From an uncultured Pelagibacteraceae bacterium (GTDB lineage Bacteria > Pseudomonadota > Alphaproteobacteria > Pelagibacterales > Pelagibacteraceae): 64,000 nt of DNA. The position numbers and the translations under genes were made by a program. Numbering within the stretch: the stretch's first letter is position 1; the number at the start of each line of letters is the position of its first letter. The DNA lies in assembly GCA_902557385.1 (NCBI GenBank), contig CACDZF010000001.1, positions 124,001 to 188,000 of the forward strand. The letters are read 5' to 3'. This document shows positions 1,154 to 15,837 of this stretch, piece after piece. Under the pieces are notes generated by a model that did no database searches, had not been told where the DNA came from, and was given only the letters and a program-made list of their open reading frames with translations.

Positions 1154-1845
1154 TAAAAGCCCCTACTATATTTAATTTCTAATCTATTAATTAACTTCAT
1201 GCTTAAAAATGTAAGTGTCAAATATAAAACTGCAGCAAATGAATAAAAGAAAAGTGGATCTCGTGTTGAGCCAGCTGCAATATATGATTGTCTCATGATC
1301 TCTACTAAACCGGTAACTGATATTAAAGATGTATCTTTTAAAGTTATTTGCCAAACATTACTCAAATTTGGAATTGCTAGTCTTAGCATTTGTGGCATAA
1401 TCACTCTAAAAAAATAAGCAAATCTTTTAAGTCCTAATACTTGTGAAGCTTCAAATTGTCCTTTATCTATAGATTGTATTGCTCCTCTAAAAACCTCTGT
1501 TGAGTATGCACCTGATATAATACCAATAGCAAATGATCCAGTTATAAATGCATTAATTTCGATATAATCATTATAACCAAAGATTGATGCCACAAACATA
1601 ACGGCACCACTTCCTCCAAAAAAAAATAAATAAATTACTAATAACTCTGGAACCCCTCTGATTACTGTTGTGTAAGAATTTCCGATAAAATTAAGGATTT
1701 TGTTTTTTGATAATTTGAGAGGAGTAAATATTAGTGCAAAAAGAAAACCTATTAACATTGCTGTTATTGAGACAGCAATAGTCATTAGAGTGGCTATAAA
1801 TAATTCATCACCCCAACCTGTTTTTCCAAATGCTAGAAGTTCCAT
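1153..1845 (-). CDS. Polar amino-acid ABC transporter permease
   Basis: HisQ-like; EASQVLGLKR...LSNVWQITLKDTSL motif. Confidence 0.88.
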   Translation of the reverse strand: MELLAFGKTGWGDELFIATLMTIAVSITAMLIGFLFALIFTPLKLSKNKILNFIGNSYTTVIRGVPELLVIYLFFFGGSGAVMFVASIFGYNDYIEINAFITGSFAIGIISGAYSTEVFRGAIQSIDKGQFEASQVLGLKRFAYFFRVIMPQMLRLAIPNLSNVWQITLKDTSLISVTGLVEIMRQSYIAAGSTRDPLFFYSFAAVLYLTLTFLSMKLINRLEIKYSRGF

Positions 1846-1888
1846 AAGACTGGCGACTATATATTATAGTCGCCAAATCTAAAATTAA

Positions 1889-2728
1889 TTACATAGAAGC
1901 GTCGAAACCAAACCATTTAATAGCAATTCTACTAATGTCTCCATTTTTTCTTGCTTGATTAATGGCTTTGTTGAAAGCATTCAAGAGTTGAGTATCATCT
2001 TTCCTAATACCAACACCAACTCCATTACCAAATGCTCCACCTGAAAAAGTTGGTCCAACAAGAACAACTGGTTTTCCAGATTTTTCTGCATAATCGCTAA
2101 ATGCTACTGCAGCAGCTAATGCGGCATCACATCTTCCCGCTGCTAAATCTAAGTTAACTTCATCTTGAGTTTTGTAAGTTCTTACATTTACTTTTCCTAT
2201 ATCACCAGACTCTAAAAAGTTTTGATGAATAGTAGCAGTTTGTACACAAACTGTTTTACCAGCTAGTGCGGCTGTTAAAGTTTTAAGATCTTTTTTAACT
2301 GCACCTGTCTTTTTACCAAGATTAATTCCCTCAGAAGTTTCCATACCTTCAAGACTTGAACCTTTCATAACTGCTAATGAAGCAACTTCGTCTGCATAAC
2401 CTTGAGAAAAACTAATTGCTTTTTGTCTTTCTGCGGTAATCGACATTCCTGCCATTATTGCATCGAATTTTCTCATTATGAGTGCTGGAATCATTCCATC
2501 CCAATCTTGTTCTACGATTTCACATTGTGATCCAATGTATCTGCAAAGTGTCCAAGCTAATTCAACCTCAAATCCAATAAGTTTGCCTGAAGCATCTTTT
2601 GAATTCCAAGGAGGATAGGCACCTTCAGTTCCAATCTTTATTTTATCGGCATAAGAACTTCCGATTAATAAGAAAGATACAAGAACTGTTAAAATTGTTT
2701 TTTTAAATATATTCATAAATCCCTCCAT
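1889..2728 (-). CDS. Amino-acid ABC transporter substrate-binding protein (HisJ/ArgT-like)
   Basis: Signal peptide; IGTEGAYPPWNSKDASGKLIGFEVELA motif of family 3 SBPs. Confidence 0.9.
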   Translation of the reverse strand: MEGFMNIFKKTILTVLVSFLLIGSSYADKIKIGTEGAYPPWNSKDASGKLIGFEVELAWTLCRYIGSQCEIVEQDWDGMIPALIMRKFDAIMAGMSITAERQKAISFSQGYADEVASLAVMKGSSLEGMETSEGINLGKKTGAVKKDLKTLTAALAGKTVCVQTATIHQNFLESGDIGKVNVRTYKTQDEVNLDLAAGRCDAALAAAVAFSDYAEKSGKPVVLVGPTFSGGAFGNGVGVGIRKDDTQLLNAFNKAINQARKNGDISRIAIKWFGFDASM

Positions 2729-2774
2729 ATAAAAAATAATTATTTCACAATTTTGATGAATTAAAAAGAAAAAT

Positions 2775-3815
2775 CTAGTGATTTATTGAAGAAGAAAAAT
2801 TCCAAGAACAGTCGAAACTAGGTATATAAACTCTATCTAGGGTAGCATTTCCAAAATTTTTATTAAAAACTTTTAACCATTTGTCTACTTGTTTGGGTTT
2901 TTTATCTTGGCTTCCAACCTGCGCAGTTATAACTCCATTTGGTTTTAAAATTCTCACTAATGAGTCCATATTCTTTGCAGCTAAATCAATACAAAACTGA
3001 TCATCGTTTAAATCTACAAAAATTTTATCATACCTGTCATCTTCAACTTTTTTTATACTTTCAAATGCATCGCCCCAAACACATTTAACTGAATTTTTTC
3101 TGGTAGATTTATTTCCTATAGACCCAAGGTGCTTCTCACAAACATCAACAACTTCAGGATCCAATTCAAACCAATCTATATATCCAAAACCTTTTGATAT
3201 ACACTCTCTAGCTACTCCTCCATCTCCTCCTCCAATAATTGCTGCTGTTTCTTTATCTTTATTCAATTTTAAACCAGCATTAACAAATGTGCCGCTGTAA
3301 AGATGTTCGTCCGATGTAGCTACCTGAATTTCATTATCTATAAATAAAGATTTTCCAAATTGTTCTAGATCTAAGATTTCAATATGTTGTCCTACCTTGG
3401 ATGTAAAATCTTCAAGAACATTTTTTACTACATAGGATTTTCTTAAACCTGGGGAACTGTAAATGTCATGGTAAAGAGCAATAGTATCTCTATTAAATTC
3501 TTTTTTTACTATTCTTTTATGCTCTATTTCTTTTCTTATTATATCCAAAGCAATTGATGGAGACACTTTTCCACAAGTAAAGAAATCGAAACTAATAATA
3601 CTTTTTTCAGGAAATGTATGAAAACTTATGTGACTTTCAGCTAAAAGTGCAACCATAGTAAAACCCTGAGGCTTAAATTTATATTTTGATATTTCTAAAA
3701 CAGTTACTTTTGCTTTTTTAGCAATTTTATAAACTAACTTTTCATAAAATGAAGGTTCATATTCCTTTTTAGTACCAATAATATCTAGTGTTATGTGCTC
3801 CCCAACCTTAGTCAT
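2775..3815 (-). CDS. Fused S-adenosylmethionine decarboxylase (SpeD) - spermidine synthase (SpeE)
   Basis: N-terminal pyruvoyl AdoMetDC processing motif LLAESHISFHTFPE; C-terminal aminopropyltransferase motif AAIIGGGDGGVARE...D.NDDQFC. Confidence 0.9.
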   Translation of the reverse strand: MTKVGEHITLDIIGTKKEYEPSFYEKLVYKIAKKAKVTVLEISKYKFKPQGFTMVALLAESHISFHTFPEKSIISFDFFTCGKVSPSIALDIIRKEIEHKRIVKKEFNRDTIALYHDIYSSPGLRKSYVVKNVLEDFTSKVGQHIEILDLEQFGKSLFIDNEIQVATSDEHLYSGTFVNAGLKLNKDKETAAIIGGGDGGVARECISKGFGYIDWFELDPEVVDVCEKHLGSIGNKSTRKNSVKCVWGDAFESIKKVEDDRYDKIFVDLNDDQFCIDLAAKNMDSLVRILKPNGVITAQVGSQDKKPKQVDKWLKVFNKNFGNATLDRVYIPSFDCSWNFSSSINH

Positions 3816-5736: not shown

Positions 5737-6188
5737 TATTTAATTCTATTTAAACTTTCTGTTGGCCATGTTTTTTCTCTATCATACATTTTATCATGAC
5801 AAATTGACTTATCTGAGATTTCAATCCATGGGTCTTTATCTTTTACAAATATATGAGCTTGGGGCTGGATAGGATTTTCTAAAGTTTGAGTTCTTAGAGC
5901 AATTCTTCCCTTTGATACACCGTACCTACAAAAAACATAAACTCCACAAATAATACAAAAATATGCATGATACCCTTTTCCGCTTCCGGTAGGTAAATTA
6001 ATTGAGGCCACATCCCCAATGATTTTAAAATCTTCTTCCATAATCATTGTATGGATTACAAATGATGATCCGGTAGATATTTTACAATTTTTGCAATGAC
6101 AAGCTTGTGTAAATAATGGTTTTCCTTCAACTTTATATTTTACATTACCGCAAGTGCAACTACCTTTTAATTCATAATTTTTTTTCAT
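5736..6188 (-). CDS. GFA/CENP-V-domain protein (glutathione-dependent formaldehyde-activating family)
   Basis: GSCTCGNVKYKVEG...QACHCKNCKISTGSSF zinc-binding Cys motif. Confidence 0.85.
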   Translation of the reverse strand: MKKNYELKGSCTCGNVKYKVEGKPLFTQACHCKNCKISTGSSFVIHTMIMEEDFKIIGDVASINLPTGSGKGYHAYFCIICGVYVFCRYGVSKGRIALRTQTLENPIQPQAHIFVKDKDPWIEISDKSICHDKMYDREKTWPTESLNRIK

Positions 6189-10619: not shown

Positions 10620-10672
10620 TGGTAGCGGGAAGTGGGATCGAACAACTGACCTCGGGCTTATGAGTCCCGCGC
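10620..10672 (-). pseudogene. Partial tRNA-Met copy (3' 53 nt including CCA); candidate att site 1
   Basis: Matches 14635-14687 with one mismatch, then diverges. Confidence 0.88.
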
Positions 10673-10801
10673 CTTCACCTTTCTCTACGTTTTTATACAA
10701 TAAAACGTTAAGAAAATAATTAAAATCCTAACTCAGTGAGTCATATGTGTGTCAGAAATATTTTAATTTTAGTGTGTCAAAATATTTGATAACGTTTAGA
10801 T

Positions 10802-11476
10802 ATGAAAAAACTTTTAGGGATCTTGGTTCTGACCTTCTTGCTGGTCAGTACATCAGCACACTCACTAAGTAATTGGAAAAAGTATACTGGCCAAGGAGAA
10901 TTGAAATTATCTAAAGATACTTTCGATCTTATAGAATTTTATTTTAGCGCTGGAAAATATGGAACAATTTATAACAACCCAAAATATGAATGGGAAAGAG
11001 AAATGATAAAAAGTGTGTGGAAACCAGCGTTTATGATTATTTCTAGAAATGGAAAAGGTAGATTTTGGTATTACGAACCTATTGGTAGTGAAATTGATAC
11101 TACGCCAAATTATCTTACAAGAGCAAGAAACAAATGTACAAAACAAGGACACGGTGAATGTTTTCTTTTTGCACTTAAAGATAAAATAGTTTGGCAAAAT
11201 GGAATAAATCCAAAAAAAGGAACTAGAATTAAAAAAAAAGATGCAAAAAATGGAATGGTATTAACAAAACTAACTGAACTAGGTTTTTATGATGGTGGTA
11301 TTACAAAAACAAAAAAAATTGAAAAAAAGAAACCAAAGATAAAAAAAAAAGCAAAAAAAGATACAGTTTCAACGTCAGATTTAGCTAAAGAGCTTAGAGA
11401 ATTAAAAAAACTTTACGATGAAGGAATTTTAACAAAAGAAGAATTTAGCAAAGCAAAAGAAAAGTTATTAAATTAA
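10802..11476 (+). CDS. Secreted protein with Cys-containing domain and C-terminal SHOCT-like tail
   Basis: Signal peptide MKKLLGILVLTFLLVSTSAHS; tail LAKELRELKKLYDEGILTKEEFSKAKEKLLN. Confidence 0.75.
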   Translation: MKKLLGILVLTFLLVSTSAHSLSNWKKYTGQGELKLSKDTFDLIEFYFSAGKYGTIYNNPKYEWEREMIKSVWKPAFMIISRNGKGRFWYYEPIGSEIDTTPNYLTRARNKCTKQGHGECFLFALKDKIVWQNGINPKKGTRIKKKDAKNGMVLTKLTELGFYDGGITKTKKIEKKKPKIKKKAKKDTVSTSDLAKELRELKKLYDEGILTKEEFSKAKEKLLN

Positions 11477-11482
11477 GTAAAA

Positions 11483-12436
11483 ATGAAAAAAATCTTAGCA
11501 ACTCTTCTTTTTTTATATCTAATATTTTTTAACTACAGTTTTGCAGATACCCAGCTTTCTTGGAACAAAAAATACCAAGGTGATATAAAAATATTAGGAG
11601 TTAATCTAAGCCTTCCAGAAGGACAGTGGCTGCTGATAGCGACAGACGGATATTTTATTAAAGGAATAGAATACAAAGAGGCTAATTTTGTTCGTGAAGA
11701 AGAAAATGTTTTAAAAGATATAGTTGAGCTTGCAGTATTTAAAACTGGCGGGCAATTTACTTATTGGATTGACTTATTTGCTTCAAAAACTTTTTTTAAA
11801 AATAGACACGATGGATGTTATGAAAAACCCGAATATTATTTATTAAAAGCTTGGGTACATAAACCATCATTCAATTGTTTTATAGTAAGGCATATAGATC
11901 CATGGAAAGAATTATATAACCCAGATAATCACCTGCCTGCCGAAGGGATTGTTTTACCTTTAGATCGTAGTTGGGTGAGAAATTGGGTGGAAGATTATCA
12001 AATTGAAATTCCTAAAGTAATGCTTTCAGATTGGCATTGGTTTTATGCAAAAAGTACAGGCATAACAATAAGTTCAATAATGCACTCAATAAACCCAGAA
12101 TTACATGGTGCAAAAAAAACAAAATTTAAAGGGGAGATGGAGTCCGAATATCATAAATTTAATATCGACAAATATCCTGAAGCTAAAAAATTTATGGAAA
12201 CCTTTATAAAACAATCAGCAAACCGACATATAAAATTTGAAGAAAGTGTTAAAGCTAAAAGAAAACATAAATTAGATTTAAGTGAATGGAATATAAGTGG
12301 AAATAAACAAAATAAGAAAAAAACAAAGAAGCATTCAAACTTAACAGAAGATCTTAAAGAGTTGAAAAAACTTTATGACGAAGGAATTTTAACAAAAGAA
12401 GAATTTACTAAAGCTAAAAAGAAATTACTAGATTAA
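11483..12436 (+). CDS. Secreted protein with SHOCT-like tail
   Basis: Signal peptide ...YSFADT; tail LTEDLKELKKLYDEGILTKEEFTKAKKKLLD. Confidence 0.75.
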   Translation: MKKILATLLFLYLIFFNYSFADTQLSWNKKYQGDIKILGVNLSLPEGQWLLIATDGYFIKGIEYKEANFVREEENVLKDIVELAVFKTGGQFTYWIDLFASKTFFKNRHDGCYEKPEYYLLKAWVHKPSFNCFIVRHIDPWKELYNPDNHLPAEGIVLPLDRSWVRNWVEDYQIEIPKVMLSDWHWFYAKSTGITISSIMHSINPELHGAKKTKFKGEMESEYHKFNIDKYPEAKKFMETFIKQSANRHIKFEESVKAKRKHKLDLSEWNISGNKQNKKKTKKHSNLTEDLKELKKLYDEGILTKEEFTKAKKKLLD

Positions 12437-12442
12437 ATATAC

Positions 12443-13123
12443 ATGAAAAAACTTTTAGGGATCGTGGTTCTGGGTTTGTTGTTAAGTGGCAATGCTTATA
12501 CTGCTAATGAGGGTTCAGGTCCTATTGAATTTCCACCAAAATTTGAAAAAAGATTTAAAGACTACCTTGGACATGTAGCAAATAAAAAACAATATAAATT
12601 TGCATTTGCATTTCACCCAGATGGAGCGAATGATTGGCAAGCAATCAAAGGTGGATCAAGTTCTCTTAAAGTTGCAGAAAAAAAAGCGATTAAAGCATGT
12701 AATAAGAAAGCAAAAAAAAAAGGATGTAAGATTTTTGCAAGAGGTGAAAAAATTGTTTGGAATTCAGATACTATCCCAAGTACTCTTTACACATTAATAG
12801 AAGCATCTGGAGCTTTTGATTATATAGACTGGAAAGATATTTCGATAGAAATAGGTGAAGGACCTATTACCTTAAGCAAAGATGCAACAAAAAAATTTGC
12901 AGAATATTTAGAAATTTACGAAAATAATAAAAACAACAAAGGTTGGAGTATTTATTTTGCAGTTTCAGCAGATGGTAAAAACTCTGGTGATATGGCAGCA
13001 TCTTCTTCTAGTGAAAAAAATATTGAAATGGTTAAAGCAATGGCGATAGCTGAATGCATGTCAAATAATAAAAAAAATAAATGCTATCTATATGCAATTA
13101 ATGATAAAGTAGTTTGGAAATAA
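12443..13123 (+). CDS. Secreted protein with two tandem copies of a Cys-containing domain
   Basis: Two repeats: GSGPIEFPP..F..YL....CKIFARGEKIVWN and GEGPITLSKDATKKFAEYL....CYLYAINDKVVWK. Confidence 0.72.
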   Translation: MKKLLGIVVLGLLLSGNAYTANEGSGPIEFPPKFEKRFKDYLGHVANKKQYKFAFAFHPDGANDWQAIKGGSSSLKVAEKKAIKACNKKAKKKGCKIFARGEKIVWNSDTIPSTLYTLIEASGAFDYIDWKDISIEIGEGPITLSKDATKKFAEYLEIYENNKNNKGWSIYFAVSADGKNSGDMAASSSSEKNIEMVKAMAIAECMSNNKKNKCYLYAINDKVVWK

Positions 13124-13204
13124 TGTTTAATTAAGAATTGATTCTTCATTTGTAATCAATTTTAAGTTTGACCGCACTATGACTGCAATGATAGGGTTTT
13201 AGAA

Positions 13205-13732
13205 ATGAAAAAACTTTTAGTGATAGTGGTTCTTTGCTTAACTTTAAATAGTTGTGCTAGCACTATGTCAGGTAATTCACAACCCGTGACCATTTCTTCA
13301 AATGTAAATGGTGCAAGCTGTATTTTAACAAATGAAAAAGGATCCTGGTCTTTACAAACTCCTGGAAGTGCAGTTGTGACCAATTCAAGAGAAAATCTCT
13401 CTGTTAGATGTGAAAAAAATGGTTATGAAAGTGCTGTCGTCAGTGTTCCATCAACACACAAAGACTCTGCCACTTGGGGCAATGTAGTTTTAGGGGGAGG
13501 CATAGGTTATATTTGGGATAGAAAAACTGGAGCAGCCTTCATATATCCGTCTACTATCAATTTAACATTAGTTAAATCTGAAACAACGCAAACTAATTCT
13601 GATAACAACACAAAAGTTAATTTAAGCGGTCAAACAACAGCTGAACAATTAAAACAATTAAGTTTATTATATAAAGACGGTGTTTTAACAAAAGAAGAAT
13701 TTGAAAAAGCCAAAAAGAAACTATTAAATTAA
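13205..13732 (+). CDS. Lipoprotein with PEGA-like domain and SHOCT-like tail
   Basis: Lipobox LNSC; tail AEQLKQLSLLYKDGVLTKEEFEKAKKKLLN. Confidence 0.75.
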   Translation: MKKLLVIVVLCLTLNSCASTMSGNSQPVTISSNVNGASCILTNEKGSWSLQTPGSAVVTNSRENLSVRCEKNGYESAVVSVPSTHKDSATWGNVVLGGGIGYIWDRKTGAAFIYPSTINLTLVKSETTQTNSDNNTKVNLSGQTTAEQLKQLSLLYKDGVLTKEEFEKAKKKLLN

Positions 13733-13736
13733 TAAC

Positions 13737-13788
13737 TTCCCGAGTTCTCAAAATTCAGTTTCTGAGTGTGTCACACGTGTGTCAAGAA
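13737..13788. repeat. 52-bp direct repeat, copy 1
   Basis: ttcccgagttctcaaaattcagtttctgagtgtgtcacacgtgtgtcaagaa; one mismatch to 15689-15740. Confidence 0.93.
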
Positions 13789-13807
13789 TTGACTAAACGT
13801 TAAATTT

Positions 13808-13860
13808 TGGTAGCGGTAAGTGGGATCGAACCACTGACCTCGGGCTTATGAGTCCCGCGC
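13808..13860 (-). pseudogene. Partial tRNA-Met copy (3' 53 nt including CCA); candidate att site 2
   Basis: Matches 14635-14687 with one mismatch and stops at the same base as the 10620 copy. Confidence 0.88.
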
Positions 13861-13990
13861 CATTTATTTTTTAAAAGCAATTGCTTAACTTTTCAATCTA
13901 ATATTTTTAATTTTTGCTAAGTGGTTGGAGCATATGTGGAGCAAGATTTAAAGATTCCTCGGGAATGCTTTGAAGAAGTCCCATGGGTTA

Positions 13991-14578
13991 TTATTTTTCT
14001 TCCATTTCAATTATAATAAAAGGTACCCATCCTCCTTTTTTAGGAAATTTTTTCGCGTTATAACTTTTAGTATCATGGTATTTTTTTGAGTGTAATTTTT
14101 CTGAAGAGATTTTATGAGTTGCGTAAGTAACTGGTTCTTTAATAAATTTACCAACTTTGCCAATAACTTTGATACTTCCTTCAATAGCAAGAGCTCCTAT
14201 ATTTAAAATCGTGTTCGTTGGATCGCTTATTATTGCATCAAAAATACCTTGAATGACAAGTTCTTCTGTGTCAACTATTCCAATTTCATAATCTGCCATA
14301 TTTGAAATTAAACTTTCTTTTGATCTAGCCCGCAAAGATAGTTCTTTTGTTTTGTAACCATCTTTTTTACAAATTACTTTTAAATTGTCTTTTGAAATTT
14401 TTAATTTAACTATACCTGGAGTGGTTACGTTCCATTTGCCTTTATTATTTTTAAAATTACATTCAGCTCCTTCAGGTTTGGTAACTATTGGCAAATTTTC
14501 TTTGCCAAAAATTAAACCTGCATAACTAACATTGCACCAAAGTATTCCCGTGACCAAAAACATAATTAGCTTACGCAT
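13991..14578 (-). CDS. Secreted protein with domain homologous to that of the 13205 lipoprotein
   Basis: LPIVTKPEGAECNFKNNKGKWNVTTPGIVKLKISKDNLKVICKKDGYKTKELSL vs PVTISSNVNGASCILTNEKGSWSLQTPG....ENLSVRCEKNGYESAVVSV. Confidence 0.7.
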   Translation of the reverse strand: MRKLIMFLVTGILWCNVSYAGLIFGKENLPIVTKPEGAECNFKNNKGKWNVTTPGIVKLKISKDNLKVICKKDGYKTKELSLRARSKESLISNMADYEIGIVDTEELVIQGIFDAIISDPTNTILNIGALAIEGSIKVIGKVGKFIKEPVTYATHKISSEKLHSKKYHDTKSYNAKKFPKKGGWVPFIIIEMEEK

Positions 14579-14634
14579 AAAAGTACTTTACCATTGGAGC
14601 ACCAGTGGAGCAATAATTTGGAAACCTTCTAGAA

Positions 14635-14711
14635 TGGTAGCGGGAAGTGGGATCGAACCACTGACCTCGGGCTTATGAGTCCCGCGCTCTAACCAACTGA
14701 GCTACCCCGCC
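14635..14711 (-). tRNA. tRNA-Met (anticodon CAT), CCA encoded
   Basis: GGCGGGGTAGCTCAGTTGGTTAGAGCGCGGGACTCATAAGCCCGAGGTCAGTGGTTCGATCCCACTTCCCGCTACCA folds as a cloverleaf. Confidence 0.92.
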
Positions 14712-14852
14712 ATTAATTTTGTATTGATATATAATACTTTTAATTTTTTAAGCAATCAAGAATTGTCTAATTTCCCTTTTTATTGTGTCATATGTGAGTC
14801 AAGAACATGTGTATTTTTAGTGAGTCAAGATTTATAATAACGAATAGAAATT

Positions 14853-15671
14853 ATGAAAAAACTTTTAGGGATCGTGGTTTTAGGTTTGTTGTTAAGCACC
14901 AATGTGCATTCAGGCAGCACTACTGGATCTGGAGATTTAAAATTATCAAGAGGAGTTCTAAGTGGCTTTATTAAATATTTAGATTTTAATGCAATTCACA
15001 ACAAAACTTTAGGCGCCCATCAACGAGGAACACCTGGCATGTTTTCAGTTAGTCAAACAGGTTCTGTATATGGATATTCATATTGCCCAATAGGTGAACA
15101 GTGTAGACCAAGCCCCAGTGTTTCCTTGAATTCATGCAGAGAAAGAACCGATGAAAATTGTTATATATTTGCAAGAGGAAGAAAAATAGTTTGGAATAAA
15201 GTTAATTATAAAATTTCAAGAAAAGCTACCAGTTCTGAGATCGAAAGAATATTAGAGGAACTAGGATTTTATGGGAACACAACAACTACTAAAAAAATAG
15301 AAAAAAAAGAACCTAAAAAAGTAGAGAAGAAAAAAGAAAAACCTAAAAAGGTTGTAAAGAAGTATGAACTTAAAGGTGAAAGATCTATAGCATTAAGTTG
15401 GGAAGGTTATGAGGATTTAATTGCGGGCACAGTAGAATTTGATGAAACAGATTATAGAGGAACTTTAAATTTACCATTACCTAATAACGATGGAACTTGT
15501 GATGGCACTTACTCATTACAAGAAGGTGGAAAAGGCACTTGGCAGATTGCATGCACAAACAATATGGGAGCAGCAGGAACTCTTAAATGGATTAAAGATG
15601 GCGGTGTTACTGGAACTGGTAGAGACCATAATGATAAAAAAGTTAAATTTACAGTTTCAAAAAAAAGCTAA
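14853..15671 (+). CDS. Secreted protein: Cys-containing domain, basic linker and C-terminal beta-rich domain
   Basis: Signal peptide MKKLLGIVVLGLLLSTNVHS; CYIFARGRKIVWN; GTCDGTYSLQEGGKGTWQIACTNNMGAAGTLK. Confidence 0.72.
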   Translation: MKKLLGIVVLGLLLSTNVHSGSTTGSGDLKLSRGVLSGFIKYLDFNAIHNKTLGAHQRGTPGMFSVSQTGSVYGYSYCPIGEQCRPSPSVSLNSCRERTDENCYIFARGRKIVWNKVNYKISRKATSSEIERILEELGFYGNTTTTKKIEKKEPKKVEKKKEKPKKVVKKYELKGERSIALSWEGYEDLIAGTVEFDETDYRGTLNLPLPNNDGTCDGTYSLQEGGKGTWQIACTNNMGAAGTLKWIKDGGVTGTGRDHNDKKVKFTVSKKS

Positions 15672-15688
15672 AAAGAAATTCTAATTGT

Positions 15689-15740
15689 TTCCCGAGTTCT
15701 CAAAATTCCGTTTCTGAGTGTGTCACACGTGTGTCAAGAA
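15689..15740. repeat. 52-bp direct repeat, copy 2
   Basis: One mismatch to 13737-13788. Confidence 0.93.
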
Positions 15741-15781
15741 AGGATTGAAGTTGCGATAAGGTACATAGAAAGCGGATAACT

Positions 15782-15837
15782 AACCACTGACCTCGGGCTT
15801 ATGAGTCCCGCGCTCTAACCAACTGAGCTACCCCGCC
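15782..15837 (-). pseudogene. tRNA-Met pseudogene (5' 56 nt intact, 3' end degenerate)
   Basis: Identical to 14656-14711; the 3' 21 nt are replaced by agcggataact-type degenerate sequence. Confidence 0.85.

Follow-up and report, generated by a model that had tools for sequence, protein, structure and literature searches.

Segments that are bounded by attachment (att) sites and lack an integration module are known to accumulate in tandem at genes for tRNA or transfer-messenger RNA (tmRNA). Examples are the ssrA islands of Dehalococcoides, where these segments are cis-mobilizable elements (CIMEs; PMC3146451). Here we describe a similar island in a SAR11 bacterium (Pelagibacteraceae), at positions 10,620 to 15,837 of a 64-kb window (the whole stretch of DNA that was analyzed; the assembly is 0.96 Mb and 81% complete). 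The island is at the gene for elongator tRNA-Met, and it is probably a tandem array of three non-autonomous, integrase-free, CIME-like cassettes (A, B, and C) that are moved by foreign tyrosine integrases. Like CIMEs, these are att-bounded tandem segments in which profile searches found no integration or transfer genes, and related elements with such genes exist nearby. Unlike the CIMEs of Dehalococcoides, the SAR11 cassettes are only 0.5-3 kb, often with one to four genes, and their predicted arm-type sites can be identified. Also, the SAR11 array mixes two polarities and several arm specificities, the nearby integrases are tyrosine rather than serine recombinases, and the array in the window includes no element with an integrase.

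Small cassettes in tRNA genes, or additive flexible genomic islands, are already known from other marine bacteria with streamlined genomes: Ca. Actinomarinales (PMC7771536) and Methylophilaceae (flexible genomic island fGI-2; PMC10872708). These share with the SAR11 cassettes their small size, their insertion into tRNA genes, the direct repeats of partial tRNAs, and cargo that is mostly of unknown function. The SAR11 cassettes have arm sites, end families, 5'-replacing insertions, and an integrase-bearing counterpart, which the accessible portions of those two reports do not mention. An earlier reading of the window, made from the sequence only, drew a loose analogy to the tycheposons of Prochlorococcus. 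The accessible part of a paper that cites their description (PMC10872708) gives tycheposons a size of 4-200 kb and a tyrosine recombinase. The analogy is fair, as both are tRNA-associated cargo elements of marine bacteria, but by that account the cassettes in the window are not tycheposons: they are at most 3.1 kb and have no tyrosine recombinase.

The islands found by Islander (PMC4383910) have an intact tDNA and a displaced fragment in the correct configuration, as we see here. Unlike those islands, the window has no integrase. Islander discards islands that lack an integrase or are under 2 kb, so most SAR11 cassettes would be invisible to it; just 4 tandems of three or more islands were reported. 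Finally, integron cassettes and clusters of attC sites lacking integrases (CALINs; PMC11389934) resemble the SAR11 cassettes in having one or a few genes, recombination sites, no integrase, and mobilization in trans (which we only infer here). We set aside an integron interpretation because the boundaries are tRNA sequence: in SAR11 the sites are phage-type arms at a tRNA gene instead of attC or attI (no search for attC was made), and there is no integron integrase.

According to ARAGORN, the window has a single tRNA, the elongator tRNA-Met(CAT) (T in Table 1). In a whole-genome search with BLASTN, three partial copies had E-values of 1e-20, 1e-20, and 2e-24, so they are not due to chance. The two copies on the left (R1 and R2) both correspond to tRNA positions 25-77 (98% identity) and end at the identical base, and the copy on the right (in R4) corresponds to positions 1-56 (100%). 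The sequence-only reading had reported all four copies and the common break of the two 53-bp copies, and both observations hold. It also took those 53 bp as the att core; there is a smaller common core, positions 25-56, within the 53 bp. If positions 1-24 of R4 are joined to R1, the result is a tRNA-Met with one mismatch, which ARAGORN accepts. The intact tRNA would have its 5' part and promoter from cassette C and its 3' part from cassette B.

Cassettes A, B, and C measure 3135, 774, and 1048-1070 bp, close to the 3.1, 0.8, and 1.1 kb first proposed, and together they hold six genes. As had been claimed, there is no recombinase among them. More broadly, profile searches of the cassettes found no integrase, replication/primase, or packaging gene. 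The sole Phage_integrase match in the assembly, on a different contig, is an Xer-like gene of 325 aa.

Each cassette end has a pair of 8-bp direct repeats with an 11-bp period. The motif is TGACACAC-n3-TGACACAC in cassettes A and C and TGCTCCAC-n3-TGCTCCAA in cassette B, and the repeats on the P-side are imperfect. On the 3' side of the tRNA, the pair begins 22-24 nt past the end of the tRNA (the background is 3.7% of 70-nt stretches). Exact pairs (8 bp, 11-bp period, and at least 4 G/C) occur at two sites in the 64 kb, both of them at tRNA-Met copies, and 10 shuffled versions of the sequence had none. Of the 23 contigs in IMG/VR with pairs of this kind, 11 have an integrase domain no more than about 0.8 kb away, and several of the pairs are directly past the 3' end of a tRNA. 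Similarly, in most of the integrase-bearing SAR11 elements that we examined, a pair separates the tRNA fragment from the integrase gene (int) and starts 31-40 nt before the start codon. Because of this shared layout and the association with integrases, we interpret these repeats as putative arm-type integrase sites. Across 300 genomes from the same genus, TGACACAC-n3-TGACACA has 12 matches in 10 genomes and TGSTCCA pairs have 35 matches in 18 genomes; the reversed control of each has none. Among 84,980 species searched, the pattern of a tRNA 3' end followed by TGACACAC was confined to Pelagibacteraceae.

The cassettes have two polarities. In cassettes A and B (3'-type), the 3' half of the tRNA is donated by the element and the old 3' half is displaced. 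Cassette C (5'-type) is the mirror image: its L-end includes the promoter and 5' part of the tRNA, and at its R-end, positions 1-56 are followed by a 3' end that is not from the tRNA. This foreign 3' end is element-borne, as it is identical in another genome, G407, whose cassette matches cassette C over 119 nt from G1 of the tRNA through the arm pair. (The 150-nt L-ends are 96% identical, and the outer 5' flanks are at background, 61%.) We considered whether R4 was a decayed full tRNA, and rejected this because G407 has exactly the same broken 3' end. This corrects the sequence-only reading, which invoked insertion into tRNA 3' ends: R1 and R2 are displaced 3' fragments, but the right-hand copy is a 5' stub whose 3' third is foreign. 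Such 5' fragments are uncommon but known (159 of 3919 Islander islands; PMC4383910). The two polarities intersect at core positions 25-56, which include the anticodon loop, and the crossover probably lies within them.

We then compared this locus across relatives. The tRNA-Met query matches 195 of the 197 genomes from the family. Most relatives have one undivided tRNA-Met, and 28 single-contig comparison regions (L036-L055 and L068-L075) have just one copy within 14-20 kb. (Two of the 28, from G164 and G178, carry 5'-type arms.) About 25 more cassettes were located in this tRNA-Met gene in genomes of the same genus, and their ends fall into four families (Table 1). Mean identity of the ends within a family is 0.91-0.95 for families 1 (3'-type), 2, and 2b, and 0.93 (R) or 0.86 (L) for family 3. 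For family 1, the means are 0.94 for R-ends, 0.94 for L-ends, and only 0.59-0.60 for the interior. (The L-end of cassette A is 88-99% identical over 100 nt among ten 3'-type cassettes of this family.) Overall, cassette interiors are about 0.60 identical, compared to 0.56-0.58 for random pairs. The content of the locus varies among relatives and the cargo differs nearly everywhere: it includes a trypsin-like protease, a LysE exporter, an ArsP permease with a helix-turn-helix regulator, pirin, a flavodoxin-fold protein, a polysaccharide lyase, a helicase, and many unknowns. Undivided sites, single cassettes, and other cargo with the same boundaries are thus all present among the relatives, rather than one invariant arrangement. 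The defined boundaries, the arms, and the conservation of the ends across genomes bear out the original claim of site-specific insertion.

At four loci, an arm site lies upstream of an intact tRNA-Met and no stub was detected (L074 in G178, L225 in G230, L224 in G342, and L222 in G249). These lone arm sites are apparently remnants of 5'-type cassettes.

Table 1. Features of the tRNA-Met island in the window, and families of cassette ends at the same tRNA in related genomes. Arms are predicted arm-type repeats.
Feature	Position	Strand	Details
R1, displaced tRNA-Met 3' fragment (positions 25-77), left boundary of cassette A	10620..10672	-	One mismatch, position 53
Cassette A L-end (putative attP P-side)	10673..10822	-	Arm repeats 10736-10754, 10772-10779
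Cassette A gene 1, 224 aa	10802..11476	+	Shared leader MKKLLGI..., C-terminal SHOCT (PF09851, 1e-7)
Cassette A gene 2, 317 aa	11483..12436	+	Signal peptide-like start, SHOCT domain
Cassette A gene 3, 226 aa	12443..13123	+	Shared leader, weak DUF4189 match (5.8e-5, sub-threshold)
Cassette A gene 4, 175 aa, lipoprotein-like	13205..13732	+	phrog_6823 (1e-13), SHOCT
Cassette A R-end (putative attP P'-side)	13733..13807	-	Exact arm pair TGACACAC-n3-TGACACAC at 13766-13784, 23 nt from tRNA CCA
R2, displaced tRNA-Met 3' fragment (positions 25-77), A/B junction	13808..13860	-	
Cassette B L-end	13861..13990	-	Arm pair TGCTCCAC-ATA-TGCTCCAA at 13925-13943
Cassette B gene, 195 aa, predicted secreted	13991..14578	-	31% identical to the 175-aa gene of cassette A
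Cassette B R-end	14585..14634	-	Arm pair TGCTCCAC-TGG-TGCTCCAA at 14594-14612, 22 nt from CCA
T, intact tRNA-Met(CAT)	14635..14711	-	ARAGORN
Cassette C L-end, including tRNA promoter region	14712..14861	-	Arm repeats 14783-14801, 14820-14827
Cassette C gene, 272 aa	14853..15671	+	Shared leader; N-terminal half related to cassette A gene 1
Cassette C R-end	15690..15759	-	Arm pair TGACACAC-n3-TGACACAC at 15718-15736
R4, tRNA-Met 5' stub and element-borne replacement 3' end	15760..15837	-	Stub 15782-15837 (positions 1-56); replacement 3' end 15760-15781
End family 1 (TGACACAC), 3'-type			G318, G418, G240, G487, G326 (tandem pair, 1979 + 498 bp), G375, AG-422-N22 (two)
End family 1 (TGACACAC), 5'-type			G407, G281
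End family 2 (TGCTCCAC)			G459, G271, G423
End family 2b (TGCTCCAATAG)			G314, G333, G361, G017
End family 3 (TGGTCCAC)			All 5'-type, stub 1-63: G003, G093, G123, G371, G257, G229, G340

All six cassette proteins in the window have N-termini that, by inspection, resemble signal or lipoprotein peptides, and three of the six have a C-terminal SHOCT domain. A profile search against PDB gave no match, and the predicted fold of the cassette C protein was poor (mean predicted local distance difference test score, pLDDT, of 50.6) and was not used. The phage relatives of gene 4 of cassette A are distant enterobacterial podovirus proteins alone (27% identity). We do not claim that the window's cargo encodes defense systems: PADLOC matches were seen in a few cassettes of other genomes, and these were mostly to generic protease or helicase models.

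A 45-nt leader block, which encodes MKKLLGIVVLGLLLS, begins many of the cassette genes: 20 of 71 are identical to it at 34 or more of the 45 positions. In the window it is found in the genes that start at 10802, 12443, 13205, and 14853. The leader DNA is nearly the same in front of mature proteins that are unrelated to each other, and such fusions are found in cassettes at several different tRNAs. Secreted or surface proteins would be what is exchanged.

If the cassettes have no integrase, where might one come from? A few relatives do have an integrase at this tRNA-Met: G017 (337 aa), G063, G402, G435, G429, and G494. There is also a prophage-like region at tRNA-Met in G123. The element in G402 is 5'-type and about 5.4 kb, with genes for an integrase, an AAA/primase protein, and the small subunit of terminase (PF03592, 7e-6; phrog_51, 1.6e-13). 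It is a phage satellite, and it fits the description of satellites like phage-inducible chromosomal islands (PICIs), at the same tRNA and with the 5' polarity; unlike such satellites, the window's cassettes carry none of its three gene types. (G435 has a satellite of about 4.4 kb at tRNA-Met, locus L256, with an integrase and a primase-like gene; it is 5'-replacing, as is the one in G402, locus L255.)

Some integrase-bearing elements share their ends with integrase-free cassettes. An integrase-free cassette with a regulator and a permease (G123ab) has both ends of the type found in the integrase-bearing element of G017. The L-end of the G017 element is common to G314, G333, and G361, which lack the integrase: identity is 88-92% over 150 nt and then about 59%. 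And G407 retains ...TGACACA-ACGAAAGGAGAAAAA, while the same type of sequence in G435 runs into the start codon of int. The G407 cassette looks like a derivative in which int was deleted. It keeps the ribosome-binding site of int, which is not visible in cassettes A and B of the window. In G459, a 58-aa N-terminal relic of a tyrosine integrase (L211, 6824-7000) lies beside an integrase-less cassette.

The prophage-like region in G123 is about 31 kb and has integrase-less cassettes on both sides (L060-L062, G123:C1:243-281 kb). It has CGTACC-type arms, which are also found around tRNA-Met in the phage contig L101.

The sequence-only reading had suggested searching for a matching integrase in the rest of the genome and in phages. 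The search of viral contigs did turn up phages with attP at tRNA-Met (L100-L102), but their arms are different, so we rejected them as the helper, and the assembly itself has just the Xer-like gene. TTGCTCCAC pairs had no matches in viral contigs, and no viral relative of the G435 integrase was found. A search of INPHARED with the tRNA region returned ordinary tRNA genes alone.

We propose that each cassette consists of cargo and a complete-looking attP, that is, a tRNA core flanked by arm-type repeats. Cassette A would have inserted first, donating its tRNA 3' half and displacing R1. Cassette B would then have inserted into the regenerated tRNA and displaced R2. Last, cassette C would have inserted in the opposite polarity, donating the promoter and positions 1-56 and leaving the stub R4. 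The recombinase would be external, a tyrosine integrase from a satellite or prophage that inserts at this tRNA and, in at least one family, has the same ends as the cassettes. The cassettes probably originate by loss or replacement of the interior of an element, including int, with the ends surviving. Mobilization of non-autonomous cassettes in trans, as first proposed, is probable.

Several points weigh against this proposal. Movement in trans (a circular form, excision, and transfer) is our interpretation of sequence comparisons. The putative arms are recognized by where they lie, by their period, and by the integrases that occur with them. Our searches of SAR11 found no integrase with TGACACAC or TGCTCCAC arms. 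A caveat is that most of the genomes are incomplete single-cell assemblies, so the absence of an integrase is not absolute; the single-contig genomes G003, G017, G026, and G063 show the same architecture. Also, homologous recombination between tRNA copies or between ends could move cargo without any integrase.

This last point leads to the strongest alternative, which is that integrases made the insertions in the past, and that cargo is now swapped mainly by homologous recombination at the ends, the leader, and the flanking tRNA copies. We consider this unlikely, although there is evidence for it. The R-end of cassette C is a chimera that changes type exactly at the arm pair: it is 5'-type outward to the pair and its interior is as in 3'-type cassettes, which suggests module exchange at the arms. 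The leaders of unrelated proteins from different genomes match at as many as 44 of the 45 positions, and we found no cognate helper for TGACACAC. But the junctions recur at tRNA positions 24/25, 28, and 31/33 on one side and at 56, 58, and 63 on the other, the arm pairs are conserved with the correct spacing, and integrase-bearing elements with the same ends exist.

Somewhat less probable still is that the cassettes are decaying remains of satellites or prophages that lost int and are now immobile, whether kept or drifting. The int ribosome-binding site in G407, the integrase relic in G459, and the lone arms in G178, G230, and G342 speak for this. However, intact integrase-less cassettes with full ends are several times commoner at tRNA-Met than integrase-bearing ones, they have almost no cargo in common, and their ends are more alike than the host genomes are (between the window and G407, the ends are 96-100% identical and the conserved flanking genes are 77% identical). 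Together these imply that cassettes have moved since int was lost.

It is very improbable that the cassettes are moved by the host's own Xer recombinase, acting on a dif-like site within the tRNA. Xer is the sole tyrosine recombinase in most of the cassette-bearing genomes, but the crossover core is the tRNA, not dif, and the cassette families differ in their arm sequences even though each host has one Xer gene. Also, Xer sites do not include arm-type repeats. We dismiss an origin in which ordinary recombination duplicated segments of the tRNA region and left the partial tRNAs as by-products: the tandem layout and the related cargo among A, B, and C would fit, but outside of the tRNA positions the copies are unrelated except for their att ends, and identical ends accompany other cargo in other genomes.

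Trans-mobilized cassettes, our preferred interpretation, may not be confined to tRNA-Met. Similar cassettes are found at tRNA-Leu and tRNA-Thr in G190, at tRNA-Leu in G003, and at tmRNA in G083. Elsewhere in the genome that the window comes from (L271, G000:C1:80000-92000), there is an integrase-less cassette at tRNA-Thr (1671-3286, with a displaced fragment of positions 30-76) and a 5'-type cassette at tRNA-Leu (stub of positions 1-39 at 5926-5964) with a 479-aa leader gene and a TGCTCCAG arm pair. A different arrangement is seen in G358 (L161, G358:C41, 6155-13050), where about ten paralogous genes encode secreted proteins of about 200 aa, and in L164 (G315) and L160 (G289). Many of these genes are preceded by a degenerate 3' half of tRNA-Met, and the arm site seems to have turned into the start of the gene (ATGACTCACATACGACACTC would encode MTHIRHS).

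As a broader scenario, SAR11 populations might exchange cassettes in an integron-like manner without an integron. tRNA and tmRNA genes would be the landing sites, a few families of att ends would be universal adaptors in both polarities, the integrases of satellites and pelagiphages would be shared, and the cargo swapped between ends and between cells would be mainly secreted or surface proteins, many of which begin with a single interchangeable signal-peptide block. We offer this tentatively, and lean slightly against it.

The general phenomenon of att-bounded, integrase-less tandem segments at t(m)RNA genes was already known (PMC3146451). Compared to the literature that we searched, what is new is the retained arm sites, the sharp end families with interchangeable cargo, the two polarities in one array, the counterparts that carry an integrase at this tRNA gene, and the leader that cassette genes share. 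SAR11 are among the most abundant bacteria, and their genomes are considered streamlined, with few mobile elements. Standard island finders miss islands like this one, because they have no integrase and most are smaller than 2 kb. If our interpretation is correct, cassettes would be a main route by which surface and secreted proteins enter SAR11 genomes, and how SAR11 gains accessory genes could be tested, as the att sequences are defined and the integrases are named. Integrase-less cassettes are stacked in one tRNA gene, and related cells have the same ends around entirely different genes, which suggests that genes are swapped by such a system even in this highly streamlined bacterium.

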